33,169 nucleotides of DNA from Maribacter sp. (GTDB lineage: Bacteria > Bacteroidota > Bacteroidia > Flavobacteriales > Flavobacteriaceae). How positions within the stretch are numbered: the stretch's first letter is position 1; every line of letters begins with the position of its first letter. The position numbers were made by a program, and so were the translations under genes. The notes below the pieces were generated by a model. The model did not search any database. It saw nothing but the letters and a program-made list of their open reading frames with translations, and had not been told where the DNA came from. Below are positions 1,918 to 32,229 of the stretch, in pieces. Location: assembly GCA_022865355.1 (NCBI GenBank), contig JALHST010000056.1, positions 1-33,169 of the forward strand, written 5' to 3'.

Positions 1918-2787
1918 ATGTCAAAAAGAAAAAAAGAAAATGTATCGAGCCAAAGGCCAAATAAGAAACCATTTAAGAATCATAGCCCTGTCAAGGCTAA
2001 AAAATATTTAGGTCAACATTTCTTAAAAAATGAAGCAATTGCAAAAAAAATTGCCCATTCCCTCTCATTGGCCGGCTATAAAAATGTCCTTGAAATCGGC
2101 CCTGGAACGGGGGTATTGACGAAATATTTGTTGCTGCGTGGTATGAATTTGATCGCCATGGACTTGGATTCCGAATCGATTGCTTTCCTAAAAAACGATT
2201 TTTACCGAGCGAATCCTGAAGTGGCATTGGCGCAGGGAACGCTTAAATTAATTGAAGCCGATTTTTTGAAATACGACCTGAGTACGCTTTTCGTTGACCA
2301 GCAATTTGGTATCACGGGCAACTTCCCCTACAACATATCTACCCAGATCGTTTTTAGGGTGTTAGAGCAAAAAGAACGCATCCCAGAGTTTTCAGGCATG
2401 TTCCAAAAAGAAGTGGCACAAAGAATCTGTGAAAAAGATGGCAGTAAAACCTATGGGATCTTGTCAGTGCTTGTACAGGCCTTTTACGATGTCGAATATT
2501 TATTTACTGTGCCTCCCGAGGTATTCGACCCCCCTCCCAAGGTAGAGTCGGGGGTCATACGTCTACTTCGCAAACATGATTATGCTTTGGGATGCGACGA
2601 AAAATTGTTTTATCAGGTCGTCAAAACGGCCTTCAACCAAAGGCGGAAGACCCTTCGAAACAGTCTAAAATCATTCGGGCTTTCGGATATTTTGAAAGCG
2701 GACGCCCTTTTTGATCTCAGACCGGAGCAACTCGGCGTATCTGACTTCATTGCACTTACAAAAAAAATTCAGGAAGATGTCGCGTAG
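1918..2787 (+). CDS. rsmA: 16S rRNA (adenine1518-N6/adenine1519-N6)-dimethyltransferase RsmA (KsgA)
   Basis: RsmA dimethylates two adjacent adenines in the 3' terminal helix of 16S rRNA, using S-adenosylmethionine, late in 30S subunit assembly. The 289-residue product shows the family signature KKYLGQHFL (28-36), SAM-binding motif I EIGPGTG (59-65), and motif IV NFPYNIS (135-141), which supplies the catalytic face. The C-terminal domain contains [12 protein letters not shown]. The start at 1918 gives a basic, lysine-rich extension of about 25 residues before the usual N-terminus. No better ATG lies between it and the conserved core, so I keep it. It follows the DUF4286/GGCT gene by 9 bp and is probably co-transcribed. 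Confidence 0.97.
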
Positions 2788-2973
2788 CATTATTGGCGAT
2801 ATTATTGTTAGCTTCAAATTAGCCTCAATTTTCGAAAGCGTTAATTCGCTGGGGTATTTTTATCAACTATCCATTAAATGCAGGGGCACCAAACTAAACC
2901 TCCCCTTCAAGAAGCCAACTCCAAACTTTTATTTAGCTTTGCGCTTGTCATCAATCTTTATAAACGACACGGC

Positions 2974-4329
2974 ATGACACCTTTTAAACTCTCCGAAGAA
3001 CTTATAGCTGAAATCGAGCAGCTTATTGAAAATCAAAAGGATTCTGATTTGAGGATCCTCTTGGAAGAAGTTCATTATGCCGATATTGCCGAAATTATTG
3101 ATGAACTGAATGCCGACGAAGCGACCTATCTTATAAAACTTTTAGATAGTGATAAAACCTCCGATGTGCTTACCGAGCTTGACGATGATGTTCGTGAAGC
3201 TATCTTAGGAAATCTTTCGGCCAAGGAAATTGCCAGCGAGTTAGGGGAATTGGATACCGATGATGCCGCGGATATCATTAGCGAACTTCCTGATGATATT
3301 GTAAACGAAGTAATTTCAGAAATTGAGGATAGGGAACATGCCAGGGACATCGTCGACTTGCTTCGCTATGACGATAATTCGGCAGGTGGCCTCATGGCGA
3401 AAGAACTGGTCAAGGTAAACGAGAACTGGGACGTACTTAAATGTGTCAAGGAAATGCGGGCACAGGCCGAATATGTCACCCGGGTCCACTCTATTTATGT
3501 CGTAGATGACGAGGATAAACTAAAAGGACGCCTCTCGCTCAAAGATTTGCTGACCACTTCGACCCGCACCCATATAAGTGAGGTATACATCCCAAAAGTA
3601 GATTCGGTCAGCGTAAACGAAAAACCAGAGGAAGTAGCCAAAATTATGAGTAAATATGATTTGGAGGCCATTCCCGTAGTTGATGAAATTGGGCGGCTGG
3701 TAGGCCGCATTACCATTGATGATATCGTAGATGTCATCAAGGAAGAGGCCGAAAAGGATTATCAAATGGCTGCCGGTATCTCAAGCGATGTCGAAGCCGA
3801 CGATAGCATATGGGATCTTACAAAAGCACGATTGCCCTGGTTGATCATTGGCATGTTCGGGGGAATTGGCGCCGCGAGCATTATCAATAGCTTTCAGGTC
3901 GTAATGTTGGAGTTTCCGATTCTCCTCATTTTTGTACCACTGATCCAGGCCACCGCCGGAAATGTTGGCGTGCAATCTTCTGCCATTATGGTGCAAGGTT
4001 TGGCCAATGATTCGGTGAAAGGTGAAATTCTGAATCGCCTCCTAAAGGAATTTTTACTCGGCCTGATCAATGGTGGGGTAATCGCCCTTATTGTCTTATT
4101 GATCAGTCATTTCGCCTTTCAGACTTCGTATTTGATCTCGATTACGATTTGTATCGCATTGATCACCGTCATCATAATTGCAGCGCTCATCGGAACCTTT
4201 ATTCCCATCTTTCTTGATAAGCGTGGCATAGATCCAGCCGTCGCTACCGGACCTTTTATTACCACAGGCAATGATATTTTTGGCATTTTGATCTATTTTT
4301 CGATCGCCAAAATTGTTTTGGGAATATGA
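2974..4329 (+). CDS. mgtE: Magnesium transporter MgtE
   Basis: MgtE is a Mg2+-gated Mg2+ channel of the inner membrane. Starting at ATG 2974 (MTPFKLSEELIAEI) gives 451 residues, the usual family length; the frame is open further upstream but that part is not MgtE-like. The order is an acidic N-terminal superhelical domain (about 1-125, with repeats of the DDAADIISELPDD type), a CBS pair (about 130-255), and a membrane domain of five helices (about 280-451). The membrane part holds the pore-region motif GNVGVQSSAIMVQGLA. Mg2+ binding to the acidic N and CBS domains closes the pore in characterised homologues. The 186-bp gap upstream shows no Mg2+ riboswitch that I can identify. A cupin gene follows on the same strand. 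Confidence 0.96.
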   Translation: MTPFKLSEELIAEIEQLIENQKDSDLRILLEEVHYADIAEIIDELNADEATYLIKLLDSDKTSDVLTELDDDVREAILGNLSAKEIASELGELDTDDAADIISELPDDIVNEVISEIEDREHARDIVDLLRYDDNSAGGLMAKELVKVNENWDVLKCVKEMRAQAEYVTRVHSIYVVDDEDKLKGRLSLKDLLTTSTRTHISEVYIPKVDSVSVNEKPEEVAKIMSKYDLEAIPVVDEIGRLVGRITIDDIVDVIKEEAEKDYQMAAGISSDVEADDSIWDLTKARLPWLIIGMFGGIGAASIINSFQVVMLEFPILLIFVPLIQATAGNVGVQSSAIMVQGLANDSVKGEILNRLLKEFLLGLINGGVIALIVLLISHFAFQTSYLISITICIALITVIIIAALIGTFIPIFLDKRGIDPAVATGPFITTGNDIFGILIYFSIAKIVLGI

Positions 4330-4377
4330 TTCTTGCAAAGCATTTCTATTAAAGTACCGCCTAAAAAATTGCAATCG

Positions 4378-4743
4378 ATGAAACCCATTAACCTAAAGGA
4401 AAAACAAACACTGTTCACCGAGTATTGGCATCCACGGCAAATAGCCGTTGTAGATGATATGCAGGTTTTGCTGGCCAAAATACGCGGGGAATTCATTTGG
4501 CATTCCCACGAATTCGAAGACGAACTTTTTCACGTGTTAAAAGGAACACTATATATGCAATTCCGCGATCGAACCGAAATTGTCGAAGAAGGAGAAATGA
4601 TAGTGGTTCCTAAGGGCGTAGAACACAATCCCATGACCAAAAACGGCGAGGTAGTACATATCCTGCTTTTTGAAAAGCAAACTACTATGCATACAGGAAA
4701 TGTGAAGCATGAAAGAACGCAGTCCCAATATCCAAGGATATGA
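4378..4743 (+). CDS. Small single-domain cupin protein
   Basis: The product is a one-domain cupin of 121 residues. Cupin motif 1 is complete: GEFIWHSHEFEDELFHVLKG, in which H-S-H, E and the last H are the expected metal ligands. Motif 2 is GEMIVVPKGVEHNP. A divalent metal site is therefore likely, but the reaction is unknown; many such proteins are of unassigned function. I chose ATG 4378 (MKPINLKEKQTLFTEYW), which matches how relatives I remember begin. A TTG at 4333, 4 bp after mgtE, would add 15 unlike residues. The stop TGA overlaps the ATG of the next gene (ATGA at 4740-4743), so the two are likely translationally coupled. Confidence 0.85.
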   Translation: MKPINLKEKQTLFTEYWHPRQIAVVDDMQVLLAKIRGEFIWHSHEFEDELFHVLKGTLYMQFRDRTEIVEEGEMIVVPKGVEHNPMTKNGEVVHILLFEKQTTMHTGNVKHERTQSQYPRI

Positions 4744-5714
4744 AATTGATGCCCATGAAAGTCCTCCATATTGATACCAATCACCCGATTTTAATTCAAG
4801 GTCTCTCCGAATTGGGATTTCAAAATGATGAAGATTATTCTTCGTCCAAAGAGGAAGTCGAGAAGAAGATACACAAATACGATGGCCTCATACTGCGCAG
4901 CCGTTTTGCGATTGATAGTTCTTTTTTGGAAAAGGCTACGCGTCTAAAATTCATTGGCCGAGTCGGTGCCGGCCTTGAAAACATCGATGAAGATTTTGCG
5001 AAGGCCAACGATATTTATTTAGCGGCCGCGCCCGAAGGCAATCAAAATGCCGTAGGCGAACATACCTTGGGCATGTTGCTCGCATTGTTGAATAAGTTTA
5101 ATAAGGCCGATCGAGAGGTGCGTTCGGGAATCTGGGATCGCGAAGGAAATCGGGGCAATGAACTAGACGGCAAGACCATCGGTATTATAGGGTATGGCCA
5201 TATGGGAAAAGCCTTTGCCAAAAAACTCAGGGGGTTTGATGTCGAAGTGATTTGCTATGATATCAAAGGGGGTGTTGAAGATGAAAATGCACGCCAAGTG
5301 GGCATCATGGAGCTCCATCAAAAAGCAGATGTTCTGAGCCTGCATGTCCCTCAGACCCCCCTAACGATTAAAATGGTCGATCTAGGATTTATTAATAAAT
5401 TCCATAAACCCTTTTGGTTTATAAATACGGCCCGGGGTAAGAGCGTAGTTACCGAAGATCTTGTCAAGGCGTTAAAATCGGGCAAAGTATTAGGGGCTGG
5501 CTTGGATGTCCTGGAATATGAAAAAACATCGTTTGAAAATATGTTCCAAGGTAGTAATAGCTCGAATGCAAAAGAGAAACTTCCCGAAGCGTTTGAATAT
5601 TTGTTACAGGCCGATAATGTGTTGCTAACCCCACACATTGCCGGTTGGACCATCGAAAGCAAAGAAAAATTAGCACAGACCCTGGTCGATAAAATCAAAG
5701 CAAAATTTTGTTAA
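4740..5714 (+). CDS. D-2-hydroxyacid dehydrogenase (phosphoglycerate dehydrogenase-like)
   Basis: The protein is an NAD(P)-dependent dehydrogenase of the D-isomer-specific 2-hydroxyacid family. Its 324 residues contain the substrate-domain block GRVGAGLENID (73-83), the Rossmann glycine motif GYGHMG (151-156), and the catalytic triad Arg232 (NTARGK), Glu259 (LDVLEYE) and His299 (LTPHIAG). It resembles the short SerA-like proteins of Bacteroidota that lack a regulatory ACT domain. The substrate could be 3-phosphoglycerate or another 2-oxoacid and is not settled. The start at 4740 overlaps the cupin stop; an alternative ATG at 4755 (MKVLHIDTNHP) would remove five residues and also fits. No serC-like transaminase is adjacent, which weakens a firm serA call. 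Confidence 0.88.
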   Translation: MKLMPMKVLHIDTNHPILIQGLSELGFQNDEDYSSSKEEVEKKIHKYDGLILRSRFAIDSSFLEKATRLKFIGRVGAGLENIDEDFAKANDIYLAAAPEGNQNAVGEHTLGMLLALLNKFNKADREVRSGIWDREGNRGNELDGKTIGIIGYGHMGKAFAKKLRGFDVEVICYDIKGGVEDENARQVGIMELHQKADVLSLHVPQTPLTIKMVDLGFINKFHKPFWFINTARGKSVVTEDLVKALKSGKVLGAGLDVLEYEKTSFENMFQGSNSSNAKEKLPEAFEYLLQADNVLLTPHIAGWTIESKEKLAQTLVDKIKAKFC

Positions 5715-5941
5715 CTTAGGGTATTGATACCAAGCATTATCTACGATTCCTCTAAAAGACTTTGTGTGCTTGATTTTAATTTGCAGAAAAAATCATAGGC
5801 CAAAATTAGGCAGCCTCCTTGCATTATAAATATGTAATGGGGTATGCAGAATTTTAAAAGAATTTCTGACACTCTATAAAAGTATGGAGATGCGCATCAA
5901 AGATTTACTATTGATTGCCATGGCTTGAACTTTAGCAAGAA

Positions 5942-6041
5942 GGGCTAAAAAAATACGGGAATCTATTTTTGTGAAGGTAGCCACCGACACAAAAGAGTAA
6001 AAGTGAACTATCAAGATATACATCGCATACTTGCAGGTTAA
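5942..6041 (+). pseudogene. Probable relic of a LytTR DNA-binding domain, frameshifted
   Basis: The 338-bp gap 5715-6052 has no intact gene. Two short reading frames together resemble the start of a LytTR domain. In one frame 5956-5994 reads RESIFVKVATDTK before a stop. In the neighbouring frame 5985-6041 reads HKRVKVNYQDIHRILAG and then stops. LytTR domains begin with a pattern of the type 'FVK...(K/R)xVK(I/V)xxxDIxxI.A', which is matched if a one-base frameshift is assumed near 5985. No receiver domain or remaining LytTR strands are visible. The rest of the gap shows nothing I can name. This rests on a short resemblance, so confidence is low. Confidence 0.28.
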
Positions 6042-6052
6042 TACGCACAATT

Positions 6053-6508
6053 ATGCAATATAAAGCTTCTTCTCCAGAAGAATACATTGAACAACTTCCA
6101 AAGGAACGTCAAGCGATAATTGCCAGATTACGAAATGTCATCCTTCAAAACCTGCCCAAAGGCTTTGAAGAGCAAATTAGTTATGGCATGCTAGGGTATG
6201 TTGTACCGCATTCGCTATATCCCAAGGGCTATCATTGCGACCCTAAATTACCGCTGCCATTTATCAACTTGGCTTCCCAGAAGAACTTTGTGGCGGTCTA
6301 TCACATGGGCATCTATACCAATCCAAAAATACATGCCTGGTTTTTGGCCGAATATCCGAAACATTGCCATCGAAAATTGGATATGGGCAAAAGTTGCCTG
6401 CGATTTAAAGATATGAATGACATTCCCTATGACCTTATCGGGGAACTTTGCGCGAAAATAACGCCCCAACAATGGATTGAACTGTATGAAAAAAACATAA
6501 AAAAATAA
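6053..6508 (+). CDS. DUF1801 (YdhG-like) domain protein
   Basis: The 151-residue protein matches the DUF1801 family. Typical features are the opening EYIEQLPKERQAIIARLRNVI, the central ISYGMLGYVVP block, and INLASQKNFVAVYHMGIY near residues 81-98. The C-terminal KSCLRFKDMNDIPYDLIGEL is also typical. The fold resembles the small alpha/beta proteins related to frataxin/YdhG, but the biochemical role is not known. There is no signal peptide, so the protein is probably cytosolic. The stop is 3 bp before the ATG of the VOC protein, which implies a two-gene operon. Confidence 0.85.
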   Translation: MQYKASSPEEYIEQLPKERQAIIARLRNVILQNLPKGFEEQISYGMLGYVVPHSLYPKGYHCDPKLPLPFINLASQKNFVAVYHMGIYTNPKIHAWFLAEYPKHCHRKLDMGKSCLRFKDMNDIPYDLIGELCAKITPQQWIELYEKNIKK

Positions 6509-6511
6509 CAC

Positions 6512-6898
6512 ATGAAAAATAGAGTTACTGGACTAGGCGGATTTTTCTTTAAGACCAAAGATCCGAATATGATAAAAGAATGGTACAAAAATCATTTGGG
6601 ATTGGATACCGACCGATATGGCTGTACCTTCTGGTGGAAAGACAAAAAGGGCAATGACTGTTCGACGCAATGGAGCCCCATGAATGAGGATACGACGTAT
6701 TTTCAGCCTAGTGAAAAGCCTTTTATGATGAACTTTCGGGTCGAAAATTTAAAGGAACTACTTGCCGTTCTTAAAACGGAAGGCGTAACTGTAATTGGTA
6801 AAATAGAGGAATATGAGTATGGCAAATTCGGGTGGATAGTAGATCCCGAAGGCAATAAATTAGAGTTGTGGGAACCCGTAGACAAAGCTTTTCTTTGA
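6512..6898 (+). CDS. VOC (glyoxalase/bleomycin-resistance superfamily) protein
   Basis: The 128-residue protein has two beta-alpha-beta-beta-beta modules of the vicinal oxygen chelate fold. The first starts GLGGFFFKTKDPNMIKEWYKNHLGL, and the second ends IVDPEGNKLELWEP. That last block is the hallmark of the superfamily, with Glu (in LELWEP) as a usual metal ligand. The first ligand position, commonly a His or Gln near the N-terminus, is not obvious here. Without that ligand pattern I cannot say whether it is an enzyme or a binding protein. It lies 3 bp after the DUF1801 gene. Confidence 0.85.
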   Translation: MKNRVTGLGGFFFKTKDPNMIKEWYKNHLGLDTDRYGCTFWWKDKKGNDCSTQWSPMNEDTTYFQPSEKPFMMNFRVENLKELLAVLKTEGVTVIGKIEEYEYGKFGWIVDPEGNKLELWEPVDKAFL

Positions 6899-6921
6899 TC
6901 CGAAAATAATTATTACATTTA
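6894..6921 (+). promoter_or_regulatory. Candidate Bacteroidota promoter for the TM2-domain gene
   Basis: TTTG at 6894-6897 is followed after 16 bp by TACATTTA at 6914-6921, seven of eight matches to the TAnnTTTG -7 box of Bacteroidota. It would start transcription about 25 bp before ATG 6953. The upstream element overlaps the end of the VOC gene, and the spacer is slightly short. Confidence 0.3.
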
Positions 6922-6952
6922 AAGGAAGTTTAAACAACCAAAAACAAAAAAT

Positions 6953-7399
6953 ATGTCAGACGAAAATAAAGATTTAGGAGATAAGGCCGAAGATGCTTTC
7001 GATGGTGCTAAGGATAAAGCAAAAGACTTTGCCAAGGAGGCCAAGGAAGCAGCCAGTGAATTTGCCGAAGAAGCCAAAAAGACGGCCAATGAATTTACCG
7101 AAAATGCCAAAGAGGCTTTTGAAAAGGCAGGGGGAGAAAACAAAAAAATATTGGCAGGAATTTTGGCGATCGTACTAGGTTCGCTGGGAATCCATAAATT
7201 CATTCTAGGGTATCAAAAGGAAGGAATTATTCTTTTGTCCATTACTTTAGTCGGATTCGTGCTTAGCTGTGTAGGTATAGGCATATTTATAGTTTGGATC
7301 ACAGGGCTTATCGGACTTATTGAAGGTATCATCTATCTGACCAAATCGGATGCGGAGTTTTATAATACGTATCAAGTAGGCAAAAAACCATGGTTCTAA
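6953..7399 (+). CDS. TM2-domain membrane protein with an amphipathic Lys/Glu/Ala-repeat N-terminus
   Basis: The 148-residue protein has two parts. Residues 1-60 are a charged, Ala-rich helical stretch with loose 11-residue periodicity (AKDFAKEAKEA, SEFAEEAKKTA, NEFTENAKEAF). This is the style of LEA or apolipoprotein-like helices that lie on membranes or form coiled coils. Residues 64-135 are a TM2 domain: a short polar link KKILAGILAIVLGSLGIHKF, then a helical hairpin whose second helix carries GLIGLIEGIIYL. There is no cleavable signal peptide. TM2 proteins are widespread and mostly uncharacterised; I infer a cytoplasmic helical arm attached to an inner-membrane hairpin. It appears to be a single-gene unit with its own terminator. 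Confidence 0.8.
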   Translation: MSDENKDLGDKAEDAFDGAKDKAKDFAKEAKEAASEFAEEAKKTANEFTENAKEAFEKAGGENKKILAGILAIVLGSLGIHKFILGYQKEGIILLSITLVGFVLSCVGIGIFIVWITGLIGLIEGIIYLTKSDAEFYNTYQVGKKPWF

Positions 7400-7812: not shown

Positions 7813-8304
7813 ATGAAAACGTACGAATTTTTATCCCTTTTAAAGGAACATGCGAACAAGAGGCTGCATTTTGAATATAAAGCAGGACATGAAATTGGCG
7901 CCAACTACCACATTACCGAGGTAAAAAATGTCAGCATAGACTCGGTAGACTGTGGTGCTGGAACCGATTTCTGGAAGGAAACCATTATTCAACTATGGGA
8001 AAGCCCGTTAGAGATAGAAAATCCCGAATATATGACGACGTATAAAGCCCTCGGTATTCTGAGCAAGGTCGATACGATCAAACCCATGGAAAAAGATGTG
8101 GAAGTCAAGTTTGAATACAGCAATCCCCAATTTCACACCGCCCAACTTTTTGTACAAGGTTTTGAAATTAAAGGGAACACCCTACTAATGAAGCTGGGCA
8201 TTGCACAAACCGATTGCAAGGCGAAGGAAACCTGCGGGGTTCCCGCTGTCGAAGCCCATCATAATGAGGAAGCTTGCTGCCAACCGGGCAGCGGCTGTTG
8301 CTAA
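7813..8304 (+). CDS. DUF6428 family protein with Cys-rich C-terminus, arsenic cassette
   Basis: The 163-residue protein has no assigned activity. I recognise it as the DUF6428 family that commonly sits in flavobacterial arsenic operons. The body (1-130) is a mixed alpha/beta domain with one Cys (C47 in SVDCGAGTDFWKE). The tail (131-163) carries C135, C141, C155, C156, C162 and C163 plus a His pair (AHH), ending QPGSGCC. Clustered thiols next to arsR and arsC suggest As(III) or metal binding, perhaps as a chaperone or buffer; this is inference. I chose ATG 7813, 11 bp after arsR, over an upstream TTG at 7792 that would overlap arsR. The acetyltransferase gene begins 11 bp after the stop. Confidence 0.75.
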   Translation: MKTYEFLSLLKEHANKRLHFEYKAGHEIGANYHITEVKNVSIDSVDCGAGTDFWKETIIQLWESPLEIENPEYMTTYKALGILSKVDTIKPMEKDVEVKFEYSNPQFHTAQLFVQGFEIKGNTLLMKLGIAQTDCKAKETCGVPAVEAHHNEEACCQPGSGCC

Positions 8305-8315
8305 TATTGATTACC

Positions 8316-8813
8316 TTGGAAAAAATTGAAATAAGACCCATGACCAAGAAGGATTGGTCCGCCGTTTCAAGAATCTACGGCGAAGGTATTGCCACGGGGT
8401 TTGCGACTTTTGAAACCAACATTCCTTCGTACGAAGATTGGGACAAGGCACATCTAAAAAGTTGTCGCGTTGTTGCGGTCAATGGGCATTACATTTTGGG
8501 CTGGGCAGCTTTGTCGCCAGTCTCTAGCCGTTGCGTGTATGGCGGTGTAGGCGAAGTAAGTGTGTATATCGCCGAAAAGAACCGAGGCTTTGGTATTGGG
8601 AAATTGTTGCTGACCGCGCTGATCGACCTCAGTGAAAAAGAAGGTCTATGGACCTTACAATCAGGCATTTTCCCAGAAAATGAGGGAAGTATCAGACTCC
8701 ATGAAAATGTAGGTTTTCGTCGTATCGGGAAACGGGAACGTATTGGACAGTTAAAAGGCATTTGGAAGGACAACCTATTATTTGAACGCAGAAGCAGGTT
8801 GGTGGGTTTATGA
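8316..8813 (+). CDS. arsN1: ArsN1-type GNAT N-acetyltransferase (phosphinothricin/arsinothricin acetyltransferase-like)
   Basis: This is a GNAT acetyltransferase of about 165 residues close to phosphinothricin acetyltransferase. Seen are FATFET near residue 30, the acetyl-CoA loop region EVSVYIAEKNRGFGIGKLLL, and a strongly conserved tail with TLQSGIFPENEGSIRLHENV, GFRRIGKRERIG and WKDNLLFERR. ArsN1 proteins with this tail acetylate the antibiotic arsinothricin (and often phosphinothricin), and the ars context supports that here. The start is uncertain. TTG 8316 keeps the first strand (MEKIEIRPM), whereas ATG 8340 would cut it off and an ATG at 8274 lies inside the preceding gene. Substrate choice has not been shown. 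Confidence 0.75.
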   Translation: MEKIEIRPMTKKDWSAVSRIYGEGIATGFATFETNIPSYEDWDKAHLKSCRVVAVNGHYILGWAALSPVSSRCVYGGVGEVSVYIAEKNRGFGIGKLLLTALIDLSEKEGLWTLQSGIFPENEGSIRLHENVGFRRIGKRERIGQLKGIWKDNLLFERRSRLVGL

Positions 8814-26373: not shown

Positions 26374-27762
26374 CTACACCACCAATTTTTTTATGCCATG
26401 CACAAAATACATGGGCAGTTCGCCAAGTCCCTTGACAAAAATATTTCCACGTAGCTCACAATCATAGGTATCTTTGATGATTTCGTAAAGCGAGGACGAA
26501 ACATTGATCATGTTGGGTTCACTGCTTTGTTCCAATCGCGCCGCCGTATTCACCGTTACGCCCCAAATATCGTAGGCAAATTTATTGACCCCTACGATGC
26601 CCGCAACCACGGGGCCTGTATGAATCCCTATGCGCACATCGAAACCTTGTTCGCCCATCGCCTGTTTTTCCTGGTTATAAGCGAGCATACAATCCCTTAA
26701 TTCGATTGCCGCATTCACGGCTTCGAAGGGATGGGTGTCATTTACTACCGGCAACCCGGCCACACACATATAGGCATCCCCAATGGTTTTTATTTTTTCG
26801 ATATTGTGCTTTCGAATAATATGATCAAACCTACTAAAACAATCGTGTAATTCAGCTACTAGCTTATTGGCCGACATGGTCTTTGACTTAGGGGTAAAAT
26901 CCTTAAAATCGGTAAATATGACCGTAACCGAATCATAGAACTTAGCTTGGGCGGTTCCTGTTTTTTTGAGTTCTTCGGCAGTTTCCAAAGGAAGAATATT
27001 AAGTAATAATTCATCAGATTTCTCCTTTTCCATGGTAAGTTCCTGGGTTCTTTGGTTTACCTCCGAACGCGCGGTACCTAGATCTTTTACCATTTTATTA
27101 AAAGCGATACTCAATTCCCCAATTTCATCGCGGGAAGTATTGGTTACTGATTGGGTCAAATCGCCTTTGCCCACCTTATGGGCAGCATCCCGCAGGGCCA
27201 AAACGGGTTTGGAGATGTTCCTGGCCAGCCAATAGCCAATAAATAGTCCGATAACGAATACAGTGAGGCTGGCAGCGGCAGACGCCAATCGAATCTGTCT
27301 TTTCCCCTTTTCGATTTCGGAGGTGGTAAAACTGACTTTTATCTCCCCATTCATTATTTTCGATGTAAAAGGAGCACTTTTATTTATGAAATGCTGATCG
27401 GAGACCGCTTCGGGATCTACCAGTACATTTTCAGGCGAGGTCGAGAAGATTTTTTTTTGGGTCTTGAAATTTTTTTTGTCCGCATCCCATATCGTATCGA
27501 TTTGTATGATGCTCACATAATTCAATCGATCGTCATGTCGCACAAAATCAATCGCCGTTTCAACGCCTTCGAAATTTTCCTCCTTCAAGGCAATTCGGAC
27601 ACCCAAAGCGACCGTTTTGGCCAAATTCTCAATCTGATTGTTGTAGTTATCTAGAAGATAGGCCGTTTGCCTTGCCGGATAATAGAAAAGAATAAATAGG
27701 GCAAACAACATGACAACAGATAAAACCGTAAGCAATATTTTACTCCGTACTGATAAGACCAT
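26374..27762 (-). CDS. Membrane-bound class III adenylate cyclase with periplasmic sensor and HAMP domain
   Basis: The 462-residue protein runs: TM helix 8-29, a periplasmic sensor region about 30-158, TM helix about 160-180, HAMP about 180-235, the signalling-helix motif LLLNILPLETAEELKK (252-267), and a cyclase homology domain 275-455. Metal ligands are D285 (IFTDFKDFT) and D329 (KTIGDAYMC). K325 and D398 (AYDIWG) are the pair that selects ATP over GTP, and N405 and R409 (NTAARLE) stabilise the transition state. The catalytic set is therefore complete and points to cAMP. It lies 64 bp after a periplasmic binding-protein-like gene, so the periplasmic region may sense that protein or its ligand. 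Confidence 0.93.
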   Translation of the reverse strand: MVLSVRSKILLTVLSVVMLFALFILFYYPARQTAYLLDNYNNQIENLAKTVALGVRIALKEENFEGVETAIDFVRHDDRLNYVSIIQIDTIWDADKKNFKTQKKIFSTSPENVLVDPEAVSDQHFINKSAPFTSKIMNGEIKVSFTTSEIEKGKRQIRLASAAASLTVFVIGLFIGYWLARNISKPVLALRDAAHKVGKGDLTQSVTNTSRDEIGELSIAFNKMVKDLGTARSEVNQRTQELTMEKEKSDELLLNILPLETAEELKKTGTAQAKFYDSVTVIFTDFKDFTPKSKTMSANKLVAELHDCFSRFDHIIRKHNIEKIKTIGDAYMCVAGLPVVNDTHPFEAVNAAIELRDCMLAYNQEKQAMGEQGFDVRIGIHTGPVVAGIVGVNKFAYDIWGVTVNTAARLEQSSEPNMINVSSSLYEIIKDTYDCELRGNIFVKGLGELPMYFVHGIKKLVV

Positions 27763-27826
27763 GTAGTCGTTTCTCTTAATGTATTGGGCAAAACAGCATG
27801 ATGCTACACTAATAATTGTTCAGAGG

Positions 27827-28276
27827 CTAAATTTGTTGTTTGCCATCTATGGTAATAATTTTTAATAATGGGTCCTTCGCCTTAGGAACGACCCCAATGG
27901 CCCCGGGTGTTTGTGCCACATACGCTTCCAATTCACTAGTGGTATTAAAGAAGGTTGGCGCCTTGACTTTCCCCTGAAAGACTAGGGCCAAGAAATATTT
28001 ATTCAGATCATTTCCTGACATATTGTAGAGTTTGTCACAGGTATTCATGCCAATTGGCGTATTGGTTTTCATCAGGGCAATGCTCACTCTTGTTCCGTCG
28101 TTCCATCGCAATTTTTCGCCTTTCAAAATCGACTGCAATTGCGCCATATCCATCTCGGCAGGTATAGATGCCCCATTGGCCACAACCATCAGTTGATCAT
28201 CCTGGGCATGCGCATAAATTGGCAACAAGAGACCCATCGTCATGGCTAGTATGAAATTACGAATTATACGTACCAT
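27827..28276 (-). CDS. Small periplasmic PstS-like substrate-binding protein
   Basis: The 149-residue protein begins with a signal peptide (hydrophobic core FILAMTMGLLLPIY, cleavage likely after AHA, residue 24). The mature part resembles the short phosphate-type periplasmic binding proteins: LQSILKGEKLRWNDGTRVSIAL, a middle LNKYFLALVFQGK, and a closing GAIGVVPKAKDP. This is about half the length of true PstS, so it is a single-lobe or minimal form. The ligand is unknown. There is no ABC permease or ATPase nearby; it sits between a beta-barrel gene (10 bp upstream) and the cyclase, which suggests a sensory rather than transport role. Confidence 0.75.
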   Translation of the reverse strand: MVRIIRNFILAMTMGLLLPIYAHAQDDQLMVVANGASIPAEMDMAQLQSILKGEKLRWNDGTRVSIALMKTNTPIGMNTCDKLYNMSGNDLNKYFLALVFQGKVKAPTFFNTTSELEAYVAQTPGAIGVVPKAKDPLLKIITIDGKQQI

Positions 28277-28286
28277 AGGTTATTGT

Positions 28287-29309
28287 TTAAAATCCAATCG
28301 CAAACTGAGCGGTTAGTCGATTCATGCTTCCTGTTATATCCCTGTCCAAATGCTGATATTCTAATTTTACGACCATCAGATAATTAATTTCATATCGCAG
28401 ACCTGTCAAGATGGAAATAGTGTCATCCATTCCCAAATACGATTCCGTATTTTGATAATTCAAGTAATCGAACCGGAGATAGGGAACCCATTTTTCTTTT
28501 ATCCTAATTCCTGAATACAGGTAGGCGTTAAAAGATTGTTGGCTGCCTGTACTTTCCGTTTTGTTATTTAACAAGGTTCCTTCCGCCAACAATTCATACT
28601 TACTCCCAAAATAGGCAACCGAGCCCGTATATAATTGTTGATTTATCCTTTCATCTATGGCCACATTGAATATCTCCGCCCCAGCAGAAATAATATCATT
28701 ATAAAAATAGGCGCCAATTTGTAATTTGTCCACCGGTTTAAAATGAACCGCAGCCGTTAACGACTTGTACTTGTCATTATCCTTGATATCGGCAGATCCC
28801 AAACCATTTCCTACCATCACATTATAGCCGAATTTCAATTTGCCAAGATTAAGGCCTTGGAGGGCAACCCCTGTGGTATGTAGGTCGATAATTCGGGATT
28901 CAAAGAGAAGCGGCCTGCCAACGGTAGGAAAAAAAACCCGGCCATGATGGTAGGTCTCGTTCCAATAATTTAGGGAAGTATGTTGCTTTCCGATCAGCAA
29001 ACTGTGGTTACCACTATAGTTGTAATTTATGATTACCCGCTCTACACCCACGGCAAACCCATGATGGGCATCCTCGGTGGCATCAAATCTAAATACGGTT
29101 TCTCCCAAAAATGAAATGCGATCGTTCAACTCAGAAGTGATGAACAAATCATATTCGCCAAATTCAAAATTGAGTTTATCGTCCCGAATGCTCGCCCCAA
29201 TATCACCAAAACCCCTTATATTGGTATCCTGTGCCTTTATTTGATCGAAAAAAGCCTGCCACAAGACCAATGAAATGAGTATTAGAAGACGCTTAACAAC
29301 ATTTTCCAT
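28287..29309 (-). CDS. Outer-membrane beta-barrel protein (porin-like)
   Basis: The 340-residue protein has a signal peptide (LLILISLVLWQAFF core, cleavage after IKA near residue 26). It has alternating amphipathic strands throughout (for example HSLLIGKQHTSLNYW, KLQIGAYFYNDI, YLRFDYLNY, VVKLEYQHLD) and ends AQFAIGF, with the terminal Phe typical of outer-membrane barrels. About 14-16 strands can be sketched. No TonB box or plug domain is present, so it is a passive or substrate-selective porin rather than a TonB-dependent receptor. It is the first gene of a tight unit: 10 bp to the binding protein and then 64 bp to the cyclase. Confidence 0.8.
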   Translation of the reverse strand: MENVVKRLLILISLVLWQAFFDQIKAQDTNIRGFGDIGASIRDDKLNFEFGEYDLFITSELNDRISFLGETVFRFDATEDAHHGFAVGVERVIINYNYSGNHSLLIGKQHTSLNYWNETYHHGRVFFPTVGRPLLFESRIIDLHTTGVALQGLNLGKLKFGYNVMVGNGLGSADIKDNDKYKSLTAAVHFKPVDKLQIGAYFYNDIISAGAEIFNVAIDERINQQLYTGSVAYFGSKYELLAEGTLLNNKTESTGSQQSFNAYLYSGIRIKEKWVPYLRFDYLNYQNTESYLGMDDTISILTGLRYEINYLMVVKLEYQHLDRDITGSMNRLTAQFAIGF

Positions 29310-29597: not shown

Positions 29598-30176
29598 CTA
29601 TTCCAATTGCTGCAGCTCTGCAATGCGTTTTTCCTTCTCGGGCTGCCTGTTTTTAATTGCAAAATCAGTATGATACCTATGGTTTTGCAAGAATTTTATT
29701 TGTATTTTATTCCAGTCTGATTTGGTTTGGACCAGCGCCCCCGTTTTTAATTCCTTATAAAGTTGGTCACTGATCGGATAAAAGTCAGATCGCCCCAGGT
29801 AGTCCAAATCACAGTCGCAAATAATTTTTTCTAATTTGTTTTTCGGCGATTGAGGTAAGCGCGTTGCTAAAATCAACCCTTGGACTATACGAATGTCCTT
29901 GTGGGAAAATTCGAAGGCTCTCATCAAATCAAGGGCCAGATCCTTTCCGGTCTTCTCATGCTCGACCTTAGAAACGGTAAAGCCGATGTCGTGCAAAATG
30001 ACCCCTATCCGTAACAGTTTGGCATTGCGTTTTTCGACCTCTTCGCGCTTAATATAATTATTGCAGGTCTTTAGGACATTAAGTGTATGATTGATACCGT
30101 GATAATATAATTCTTTAGGCAATTGAGTCCTTAAAATTTCAAAGGCCCTTCGTCGAAGTTTATAATATCCTTTCAT
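29598..30176 (-). CDS. HD-domain metal-dependent phosphohydrolase
   Basis: The 192-residue soluble protein has an HD domain. Its metal ligands are H26 or H30 in YYHGINHT, the H62-D63 pair in ILHDIGFTV (an HDIG-like box), and an Asp at 122-125 in CDCDLDYLG. Proteins with this domain hydrolyse nucleotides or cyclic nucleotides; the substrate here is unknown. Similar small HD proteins accompany class III cyclase domains in other Bacteroidota, as far as I recall, and a cyclase operon begins 288 bp downstream on the same strand. The gap 29310-29597 between them shows no recognisable feature. Confidence 0.8.
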   Translation of the reverse strand: MKGYYKLRRRAFEILRTQLPKELYYHGINHTLNVLKTCNNYIKREEVEKRNAKLLRIGVILHDIGFTVSKVEHEKTGKDLALDLMRAFEFSHKDIRIVQGLILATRLPQSPKNKLEKIICDCDLDYLGRSDFYPISDQLYKELKTGALVQTKSDWNKIQIKFLQNHRYHTDFAIKNRQPEKEKRIAELQQLE

Positions 30177-30537
30177 GCTACAAAACTATTTCAGGGATGT
30201 AAGAATGCCTCCACCATAAGCATTTCTCAAAAACGCATCGCTATATGGTACCGTTTAGGATATTAAAAATAACTATTTTAAGTGCGCGTTCTTAAAAAGA
30301 ATGGGATTTTTCGAAGTACGGTAGGTTTCACTGGACCTAAAACCCATAAATATAGGGTGATCATTGTATAGTAAAAGAATTGAAGCCCCAACTATCCCAA
30401 TTCATCTTTGATTCCTACCAAATACCTATTGAAATATTAAATGAATGATCAGTGAATTTAGTATCTTTTCTCTTTGAATGACGCTGAAGTATCTGGTATG
30501 CTTCTTGCTTCATAGTATAATTATAAATGGGAACCAA
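30177..30537. other. Intergenic region before the PafA-like gene
   Basis: These 361 bp separate the divergent HD-protein and phosphatase genes. I see no gene or RNA. Two weak -7-like boxes lie near the 3' end: TATCTTTT (30463-30470) and TCTCTTTG (30470-30477), each one mismatch from TAnnTTTG. Neither has a convincing -33 partner. The phosphatase frame is open back to 30478, but only from 30538 does it encode a secretion signal with the family spacing. Confidence 0.3.
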
Positions 30538-32229
30538 ATGAACAGAATACTTTTATGCACTATTTTATTGGTGCTGCCCGCTTGCTTTTTAAACGGTCAA
30601 AACCCAAATATCGGGAAACCGAAGTTGGTAGTAGGCATCGTAGTGGACCAAATGAGGTCTGATCAGCTCCATCGGTATGAAAAAAAATATTCGGCGGGCG
30701 GTTTTATGAGATTGGTTCGGGAAGGTTATAATTTTAAGAACGCAAACTATAATTACGTACCTACCGTTACTGCCGCCGGTCATGCTTCAATTTATACGGG
30801 CACTACCCCTTCCGAACATGGTATCATAGGCAATAGTTGGTACGATCGCTATACTGCTAAATTGTTGGGCAATGTTGATGATGCTACCGAAACCATTGTG
30901 GGATCTGCTGAAAAAAATGCCCTAGGAGCTTCCCCAAAAAATCTTATGACAACCACCATTTCGGACCAACTTCGGCTGGCGACGAACTTTAAGGCCAAAG
31001 TCATAAGTATTTCTTTAAAGGACAGAGGCGCCATTTTACCGGGCGGCCATACGGCAAATGCAGCCTATTGGCACGATTGGGTAACTAGCCCCGGGTATTT
31101 CGTTTCAAGCACGTATTATATGGATGAATTGCCGAAATGGGTCAGTGCTTTCAACAAATTGGAGAAATCGAACGCCTATCTAAACAACACCTGGAATACC
31201 CTTTATCCCATAGAAACCTATACTGAAAGTGAAGCGGATAATAATAATTATGAGCCTTCATTGGGTGGCAAACCGAGTCCGACCTTTCCCTATGACTTAA
31301 AAAGTATGAGGGAAAAATATAAGACCGTGGGTGCGGAATATCAATTGGTCTGGGTGACTCCGGCCGGAAATTCCCTACTTACCGAATTTGCCCTGGAAGC
31401 CGTGAAAAACGAAGAGCTTGGCAAAGATGACATTACCGATCTATTAAGTATTAGCTATACCGTACCTGATATAATGGGACATACCTTTGGACCACAATCG
31501 GTTGAAATCGAAGATGTATATCTTAGGCTGGACAAGGATATTGAAAGGCTATTAAATTCTTTGGACAACACCGTGGGCATAAATAATTATGTACTTTTTT
31601 TGACCTCTGACCATGCGGCCATGCCTGTGGCCTCCTTCTTGAAGGACCATAAATTACCTGCCGGGGTTGCGCGTATACAACAGTATCAAGATGCCGTGAC
31701 CAATTTCTTGAATTCGAAATATGGCAATAATTCCTGGATAGAAAATTTTGATGGGGAGCAATTATATCTGAATCGACCCTTGATCGCGACCCTTAAATTA
31801 GATTTAAATACGCTTCAGCAGGAAGTTGCAGACTTTTTAATCGACATACCGGGCATTCATAATGTTTTGACCGCACATGATCTACAGACCCAGAATTATG
31901 ACACAGGCATACGGCAATTAGTTCAAAACGGCTATTACGCCAAACGTTCAGGGGATGTGCTCTTGTCCTTTGATTCAGGTTTCACACAAAACCCAAATTC
32001 AAATATCGATGTATCGCAAGTAAAAGGAACTACACATGGTTCGGGCTATGCCTACGATACCCATGTACCATTACTTTGGTTCGGTTCTGGGATCCCCACT
32101 GGGGAATCGGTACGAAAAGTCGCACCGATCGATATTGCTCCCAGTCTTGCCATGATTCTTAATATCACCTTTCCGAGTGGTACCTCAGGCGAGCCTTTGG
32201 TGGAAATCTTTAAGGACCATGGCCAATAA
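30538..32229 (+). CDS. pafA: PafA-like secreted alkaline phosphatase
   Basis: The protein is a phosphomonoesterase of the alkaline phosphatase superfamily, PafA subtype of Bacteroidota. From ATG 30538 the product has 563 residues with a signal peptide (MNRILLCTILLVLPACFLNG). Key residues are D37 (VVDQMRSD), the nucleophile T78 (VPTVTAAGHA), N99 (GNSWYDR), K161 and R163 (LKDRGAILPGGH), D311 and H315 (PDIMGH), D358 and H359 (TSDHA), and H500 (THGSGYAYDTH). The first residues are offset by one from Elizabethkingia PafA (T79, N100, K162, R164), as I recall it. Cys16 in LPAC is only a poor lipobox. PafA enzymes act in the periplasm on organic phosphate esters. Confidence 0.92.
   Translation: MNRILLCTILLVLPACFLNGQNPNIGKPKLVVGIVVDQMRSDQLHRYEKKYSAGGFMRLVREGYNFKNANYNYVPTVTAAGHASIYTGTTPSEHGIIGNSWYDRYTAKLLGNVDDATETIVGSAEKNALGASPKNLMTTTISDQLRLATNFKAKVISISLKDRGAILPGGHTANAAYWHDWVTSPGYFVSSTYYMDELPKWVSAFNKLEKSNAYLNNTWNTLYPIETYTESEADNNNYEPSLGGKPSPTFPYDLKSMREKYKTVGAEYQLVWVTPAGNSLLTEFALEAVKNEELGKDDITDLLSISYTVPDIMGHTFGPQSVEIEDVYLRLDKDIERLLNSLDNTVGINNYVLFLTSDHAAMPVASFLKDHKLPAGVARIQQYQDAVTNFLNSKYGNNSWIENFDGEQLYLNRPLIATLKLDLNTLQQEVADFLIDIPGIHNVLTAHDLQTQNYDTGIRQLVQNGYYAKRSGDVLLSFDSGFTQNPNSNIDVSQVKGTTHGSGYAYDTHVPLLWFGSGIPTGESVRKVAPIDIAPSLAMILNITFPSGTSGEPLVEIFKDHGQ

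Follow-up and report, generated by a model that had tools for sequence, protein, structure and literature searches.

In the Yfi system of Pseudomonas aeruginosa (YfiBNR), the periplasmic protein YfiR binds the sensor of YfiN, and YfiB sequesters YfiR at the outer membrane (PMC3375315). The Yfi core is reported with varied outputs, namely GGDEF, GGDEF-EAL, kinase, Hpt and MCP (PMC3375315), and a LapD-like sensor has been proposed (PMC3838380). Elsewhere, a periplasmic binding protein, GltB, governs membrane signalling by GtrS-GltR (PMC7927077), and binding-protein domains within CdgH govern its signalling (PMC5431781). Here we describe a three-gene cassette in a stretch of 33,169 nucleotides from a Maribacter species of the Flavobacteriaceae (contig JALHST010000056.1), the whole of which is called the window. 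The cassette encodes an outer-membrane beta-barrel, a short PstS-like protein and a receptor that carries a class III nucleotide cyclase. Its logic may best be read as that of YfiB-YfiR-YfiN with different outer and periplasmic parts. The explanation that we would favour, with confidence little above even, is that the cassette senses across the three layers of the envelope and that its output can be exchanged; half of a periplasmic binding protein (half-PBP) would relay to the receptor.

The cassette resembles YfiBNR in that outer-membrane, periplasmic and HAMP-receptor parts are encoded together. There is also a distant similarity of receptor N-termini: among 19 that resemble the window sensor, 8 match NF053592, 6 match DgcN/YfiN and 3 match CHASE8 weakly, and the whole window receptor matches NF053592 ("HK, YfiR-like protein-associated") at 6.9e-12, with HAMP included in the match. 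However, the cassette falls outside the Yfi family. Its periplasmic part is a PstS lobe rather than YfiR, whose family was not found in the Pfam and NCBIfam matches (E<=0.01) of 49 short proteins. Its outer-membrane part is a barrel rather than the Pal-like YfiB, and the OmpA-like peptidoglycan-binding family was not found among the matches of 43 barrels (alignment A4, see below). The output in the window, a class III cyclase, is absent among the Yfi outputs named in the available part of PMC3375315. GltB with GtrS-GltR and CdgH differ from the cassette in having full-size binding proteins or fused domains, and no lone lobe or paired barrel is described in the parts of those papers at hand. 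A cassette of barrel, short PstS and receptor is likewise not described in any title or abstract beginning that searches of the open-access literature listed.

The three genes lie in one orientation with gaps of 10 bp (barrel to short protein) and 64 bp (short protein to cyclase). A first-pass annotation of the sequence had read them as a tight operon in which the barrel could admit a ligand, a half-sized PstS-like protein bind it and the cyclase report it as cAMP; open reading frames (ORFs), strands and spacing are all as it claimed. Loci, genomes and contigs are given below as L, G and C numbers. A single-protein query finds relatives in 3 of the order's 296 genomes, counting that of the window, and in the one genome of the genus, which is its own. 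Four loci in named genomes, at 52-64% identity, belong to Cyclobacteriaceae (L012), Maribacter (L013), Cytophagales (L014) and Mucilaginibacter (L015). All three window proteins are closest to L012 (64, 67 and 68% identity), and in the six relatives L010-L015, some of them cut by contig ends, barrel, short protein and receptor follow in the same order. A seven-member profile of the short protein reaches at least 32 of 395 Bacteroidota genomes and at least 24 of 171 genera, the window's included, and at least 2 of 397 genomes within the window's family, the second of which (G867) is apparently that of L013; these searches scored up to 9 candidates per genome, and the genome counts may be low. 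The cassette is conserved yet patchy across Bacteroidota.

The first-pass annotation staked its reading on frequent co-occurrence of the three genes in relatives, and they do co-occur. Among 45 mapped Bacteroidota loci (the window, L012-L015, L045-L084 without L076, and L088), a barrel-type gene adjoins the short gene in 43 (not in L067 and L074), and a receptor is assigned in 37: it lies no more than about 250 bp downstream in 33 of them and upstream of the barrel in the other 4 (L047, L049, L050, L081). For L047 the count uses the kinase that precedes the barrel; on the downstream side there is a second kinase, of the propeller type. Left out of the counts are L076, where a stop breaks the short-protein frame and a barrel-like fragment and chemotaxis receptor are present, the extra barrel/short-protein copies in L061, and the weak matches G641 and G557. 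Adjacency is still kept in distant loci whose short proteins are about 20-25% identical, and it is far beyond expectation for scattered genes, the loci not all being independent. Across 36 loci, distance matrices of the short protein correlate with those of the barrel (r=0.87) and of the sensor (r=0.73), with 0 of 2000 permutations as high; barrel against sensor gives r=0.69. At the DNA level, no clear conserved element is seen between the short-protein and receptor genes of five loci, and the promoter motif TAnnTTTG was not found in the 341 bases upstream of the barrel or in two stretches around the gene gaps.

The Proteobacterial sample comprises 11 loci, namely three of the six Proteobacteria-or-Persicobacter records besides L088 (L085-L087) and 8 of 23 further records (L091-L098), with L086 and L091 on one plasmid. 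A barrel stands beside the short gene in nine (not in L092 and L096), after rather than before it in L086, L087, L091 and L093. Signalling genes near the short gene are found in five: MCP in L085 (convergent), L092 (on the other strand) and L094, GGDEF in L087 and EAL in L095; all but L092 are among the nine with a barrel. L097 has an EAL gene about 2.2 kb further on. The comparison made in the first-pass annotation, with gammaproteobacterial loci combining a short PstS-like protein, a porin and a signalling protein, thus stands for the barrel in 9 of 11 loci and for the full set in 4, not for every locus. Some single loci vary the arrangement. L061 (960-6784) has two tandem barrel/short-protein pairs, with a third barrel-like ORF upstream, before one chemotaxis receptor. 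A convergent DUF2914 gene lies beside receptor-less pairs in L058 (4842-5933), L062 (3163-4254; both by Pfam) and L066 (2891-3982, of the same length). On an Alteromonas plasmid, a short PstS-like gene and a barrel lie near the type IV CRISPR genes csf2/csf3 (L093, 3498-7360).

The outputs of the 37 Bacteroidota receptors are 19 kinases, 14 chemotaxis receptors, 2 cyclases (window and L013), one SpoIIE phosphatase (L065) and one GAF-domain protein (L088). Pfam is the basis for 33 of them; the outputs of L070, L082 and L083 follow from their resemblance to L055, L073 and L084, and that of L013 from its similarity to the cyclase of the window. In the six nearest loci (window, L012-L015, L045), the first 250 residues, comprising sensor and HAMP, are 57-74% identical whatever the output, and the alignment diverges just after HAMP. 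Judged from these alignments, the input half of the receptor is kept in the nearest loci while the output is exchanged. The suggestion that the Bacteroidota version has a different output is borne out to the extent that the cyclase sits on the same input as the outputs of other receptors. The cyclase form is a rare variant of the cassette, and a single origin for its two members is neither shown nor rejected (approximately unbiased test, p=0.254). That kinase and chemotaxis outputs far outnumber cyclases goes beyond the first-pass annotation, as does the link of an upstream HD gene with class III cyclases described below. At three kinase loci (L014, L072, L078) a receiver-cyclase is encoded beside the cassette or in its operon; that of L014 shares 67% identity with a protein in L127 for which Pfam confirms both the receiver and the cyclase domain. 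Because receptor cyclases and kinase loci with a receiver-cyclase both occur, either fusion or phosphorelay may lead to a cyclase output.

The short protein of the window alone has no credible match in Pfam, NCBIfam or the PDB. However, a 49-member family profile matches the PstS-type structure 1twy (4.5e-11) over chain residues 102-220 of 290, and the corresponding stretches of 4q8r and 4gd5. PBP_like_2 is matched by 27 of the 49 members and TIGR02136 PstS also by 27 (E<=0.01), the window protein not being among them. The matched stretch we take to be the second lobe of PstS, so that the short protein would be an isolated lobe with the first absent; the description of it as half-sized and PstS-like holds through the family profile. 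SSGTR of 1twy is aligned with "dsevr" in the family profile, and, read by eye across two alignments, the window has TPIG there; this SGT-type loop is presumably the phosphate loop of PstS. The family is thus homologous to a stretch of PstS, but unlike PstS the protein is half size, lacks the first lobe, does not keep the SGT-type loop and is encoded in an operon without ABC transporter genes, as the first-pass annotation had noted. Since there is a single lobe and the loop is not kept, a classic clamshell phosphate site, and with it classic phosphate binding, is unlikely. The idea that the half-protein simply binds a PstS-type ligand fares correspondingly badly, although the protein may act as a dimer or bind another ligand. 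A structure of the short protein predicted from the window and L012-L015 has a mean predicted local distance difference test score of 50, too poor for reading the fold. Matches to an FH1/FH2 protein and to Cyc-maltodext_C were set aside as chance. The short gene is annotated as phosphate ABC transporter in 8 of 10 annotated Proteobacterial loci.

The receptor matches Guanylate_cyc (7.8e-51) and HAMP (5.9e-15) in Pfam, and its best sequence matches in the PDB are adenylate cyclases of types 9, 8 and 5. Residues D285, K325, D329, D398, N405 and R409 are all present in the cyclase domain; we take D285 and D329 to be the metal-binding Asp pair, N405 and R409 the transition-state Asn and Arg, and K325 and D398 the base-selecting Lys/Asp pair. 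By sequence the enzyme is accordingly a class III cyclase with the complete ATP-type residue set that the first-pass annotation had ascribed to it, and its product is probably cyclic AMP (cAMP). This cyclase is the single protein of the window's genome in which HAMP exceeds its cut-off. In the predicted model, confidence is fairly good over residues 11-180 or so, with block means of 72-86, fold searches being filled by the catalytic domain; a sequence profile of the sensor finds nothing credible in the PDB.

The barrel is identified largely through its family. The window protein alone matches OMP_b-brl at 0.0027, below cut-off, and does not match Porin_O_P (E<=0.01), in which it is unlike OprO and OprP. 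The family profile nevertheless matches OprO (4rjx, 9.1e-7) and OprP (2o4v), and among the 43 barrels of A4 Pfam finds Porin_4 in 10, OMP_b-brl in 6 and Porin_O_P in 5 (E<=0.01). A4 overlaps only partly with the 43 adjacent genes of the mapped loci, taking in three Proteobacterial genes and two from L061. Among those adjacent genes 40 of 43 end in Phe (L068, L083 and L084 end in Leu) as against 15 of 104 control ORFs, 5 of these 15 being cassette-type barrels. A crude signal-peptide measure is positive for 33 of 39 barrels and 40 of 45 short proteins, as against 44 of 104 controls. For many of the adjacent genes the name of barrel comes from position, length and a C-terminal Phe, and Pfam backs at most 21 of the 43 in A4. 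Taken alone, the barrel call for the window gene is weak; the family profile and the C-terminal Phe carry it.

Taken together, the observation of the first-pass annotation is confirmed and its interpretation partly supported. The half-PBP is probably a protein messenger rather than a classic ligand binder, and the balance tilts modestly towards a working three-layer relay. We infer its contacts, ligand, signal direction and product as follows. The soluble half-PBP would serve as messenger between outer and inner membrane and dock on the periplasmic domain of the receptor. The barrel would set the availability of the half-PBP, or its loading with something that enters through the barrel. The change would pass via the second transmembrane helix and HAMP and align the cyclase dimer, giving cAMP, which the upstream HD protein would remove or read.

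Several points weigh against such a relay. Mirrored distances also follow from shared inheritance, and the 45 loci are not 45 independent events, since several come from the same genome or genus and are each counted singly. No receptor is assigned in 8 of the 45 (none in six, a contig end in L051 and a convergent kinase in L071); with this, and with a signalling gene in 5 of the 11 Proteobacterial loci, the barrel/short-protein pair may work without a receptor or in trans. On the receptor side, HAMP is over cut-off in 24 of 33 scanned receptors, and the window's own 185-aa N-terminus reaches none of the thresholds for NF053592, DgcN/YfiN and CHASE8. The receptors of L063, L072 and L078 have 4HB_MCP_1, over cut-off, as periplasmic domain; because some receptors thus carry another domain there, docking could not use one conserved interface.

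The most serious alternative, which we consider possible but doubtful, is the model of the first-pass annotation, in which a small phosphate-like anion enters through the barrel and is captured by the half-PBP, which may do so as a dimer and, once loaded, activates the cyclase. The PstS-type ancestry of the short protein and the OprO/OprP-type resemblance of the barrel profile fit this model, as does the PafA phosphatase adjoining the cassette in the window and L013, and a full-size periplasmic binding protein activating a receptor kinase provides a precedent (GltB with GtrS-GltR, PMC7927077). However, the first lobe is absent and the SGT-type loop is not kept, and PafA is found in just 2 of the 45 mapped loci, each assigned to Flavobacteriaceae or to the family of the window. 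It is less likely still that the barrel and the short protein work as a pair in uptake or in outer-membrane assembly, with the receptor sensing the same compound directly and adjacency reflecting co-regulation only. Pairs or short proteins without an adjacent receptor (6 of the 45 loci, and L086, L091, L093, L096 and L098) and the variety of sensor types would suit such a pair. The three-way co-inheritance speaks against it, and in the seven genes of the window that were scanned in the region of the cassette Pfam matches no transporter family. A horizontally moving cluster whose genes travel together without physical interaction would account for the very patchy distribution (at least 2 of 397 genomes of the family), for the closest relatives of all three proteins being in a Cyclobacteriaceae locus and for the sole over-cut-off HAMP of the genome, but is highly improbable given adjacency kept at 20-25% identity and output swaps that leave the input intact in the nearest loci.

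If the relay is true, the Yfi-type idea of an outer-membrane part, a soluble periplasmic messenger and a receptor of swappable output has been realised a second time from quite different parts, with kinases, chemotaxis receptors, a phosphatase and nucleotide cyclases as its outputs. A role in signalling would then fall to isolated PstS lobes that are now annotated as proteins of phosphate ABC transporters. The cyclase form would amount to a natural swap experiment because similar input halves drive different outputs, and it points to candidates for the signals and partners of Bacteroidota class III cyclases. The features of the locus are listed in Table 1.

Table 1. Genes of the cassette and its upstream neighbours in the window
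Feature	Coordinates	Strand	Remark
Outer-membrane beta-barrel, porin-like family, 340 aa, first cassette gene	28287..29309	-	Family profile distantly resembles OprO/OprP
Short PstS-like protein, 149 aa, predicted isolated second lobe of a PstS-type binding protein	27827..28276	-	Signal-peptide-like N-terminus
Receptor cyclase, 462 aa: transmembrane helix, periplasmic sensor (~residues 30-158), transmembrane helix, HAMP (178-228), linker, predicted class III ATP-type cyclase (273-456)	26374..27762	-	
HD-domain protein, 192 aa; candidate phosphodiesterase or cyclase partner	29598..30176	-	Closest homologues near class III cyclases
PafA-type alkaline phosphatase, divergent to HD gene	30478..32229	+	

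The HD gene shares the strand of the barrel gene and lies 288 bp upstream of it; the HD motif is retained. The protein is matched in 62 of 80 family genomes, the window's included. At the six closest other HD loci (L124-L129, two from one genome) a class III cyclase is near in every case, on the same strand as the next gene or next but one in five and divergent, about 1.6 kb off, in L128; PycTM-like genes occur at L124 (Pfam-confirmed), L126 and L127. Within flanks of about 1.5 kb, a cyclase is found at 4 of the 5 closest HD loci (L100-L104) versus 0 of the 19 longer homologues (L105-L123, 399-454 aa). One of these longer proteins, L105, was scanned and is a fusion of HD and PycTM. The gene row of L013 reads PycTM, HD, barrel, short protein, cyclase. 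Of the loci compared, only the window and L013 have PafA and HD near the cassette; for this reason PafA was not taken as grounds for a phosphate-regulon reading as the main line, and it gives weak support to a phosphate theme.

These neighbours invite comparison with Pycsar (PycC plus PycTM). The likeness lies in the class III cyclase, in the PycTM-family gene beside the HD gene of L013, and in the HD homologues with cyclase and PycTM-like genes in L124, L126 and L127. Unlike in Pycsar, the window cyclase is a membrane receptor with ATP-type residues. No PycTM is adjacent to the window cassette; the genome's one match is on contig C224, along with three class III cyclase matches, and no search aimed at PycTIR was made. 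The genome also has 7 cNMP-binding matches, 6 of them over cut-off. HD/PycTM proteins or CRP-like regulators may therefore read the cyclic nucleotide or remove it. That an outer-membrane event would lead through the half-PBP messenger and a cyclic mononucleotide to an HD/PycTM membrane-effector branch, as an envelope-triggered, Pycsar-like pathway in Flavobacteriaceae, is improbable. Around small HD homologues a recurring set is seen, cyclase-HD, in several cases with PycTM-like genes. In L127 (5205-11611), kinase-like, receiver, receiver-cyclase, HD and PycTM-like genes stand in a row; the receiver has 69% and the receiver-cyclase 67% identity to its counterpart in cassette locus L014. In L131, the 9.6-kb contig C224 of the window's own genome, three cyclase-match genes and the PycTM match together occupy 3-1364, 2769-4673, 5442-7379 and 8161-8745.

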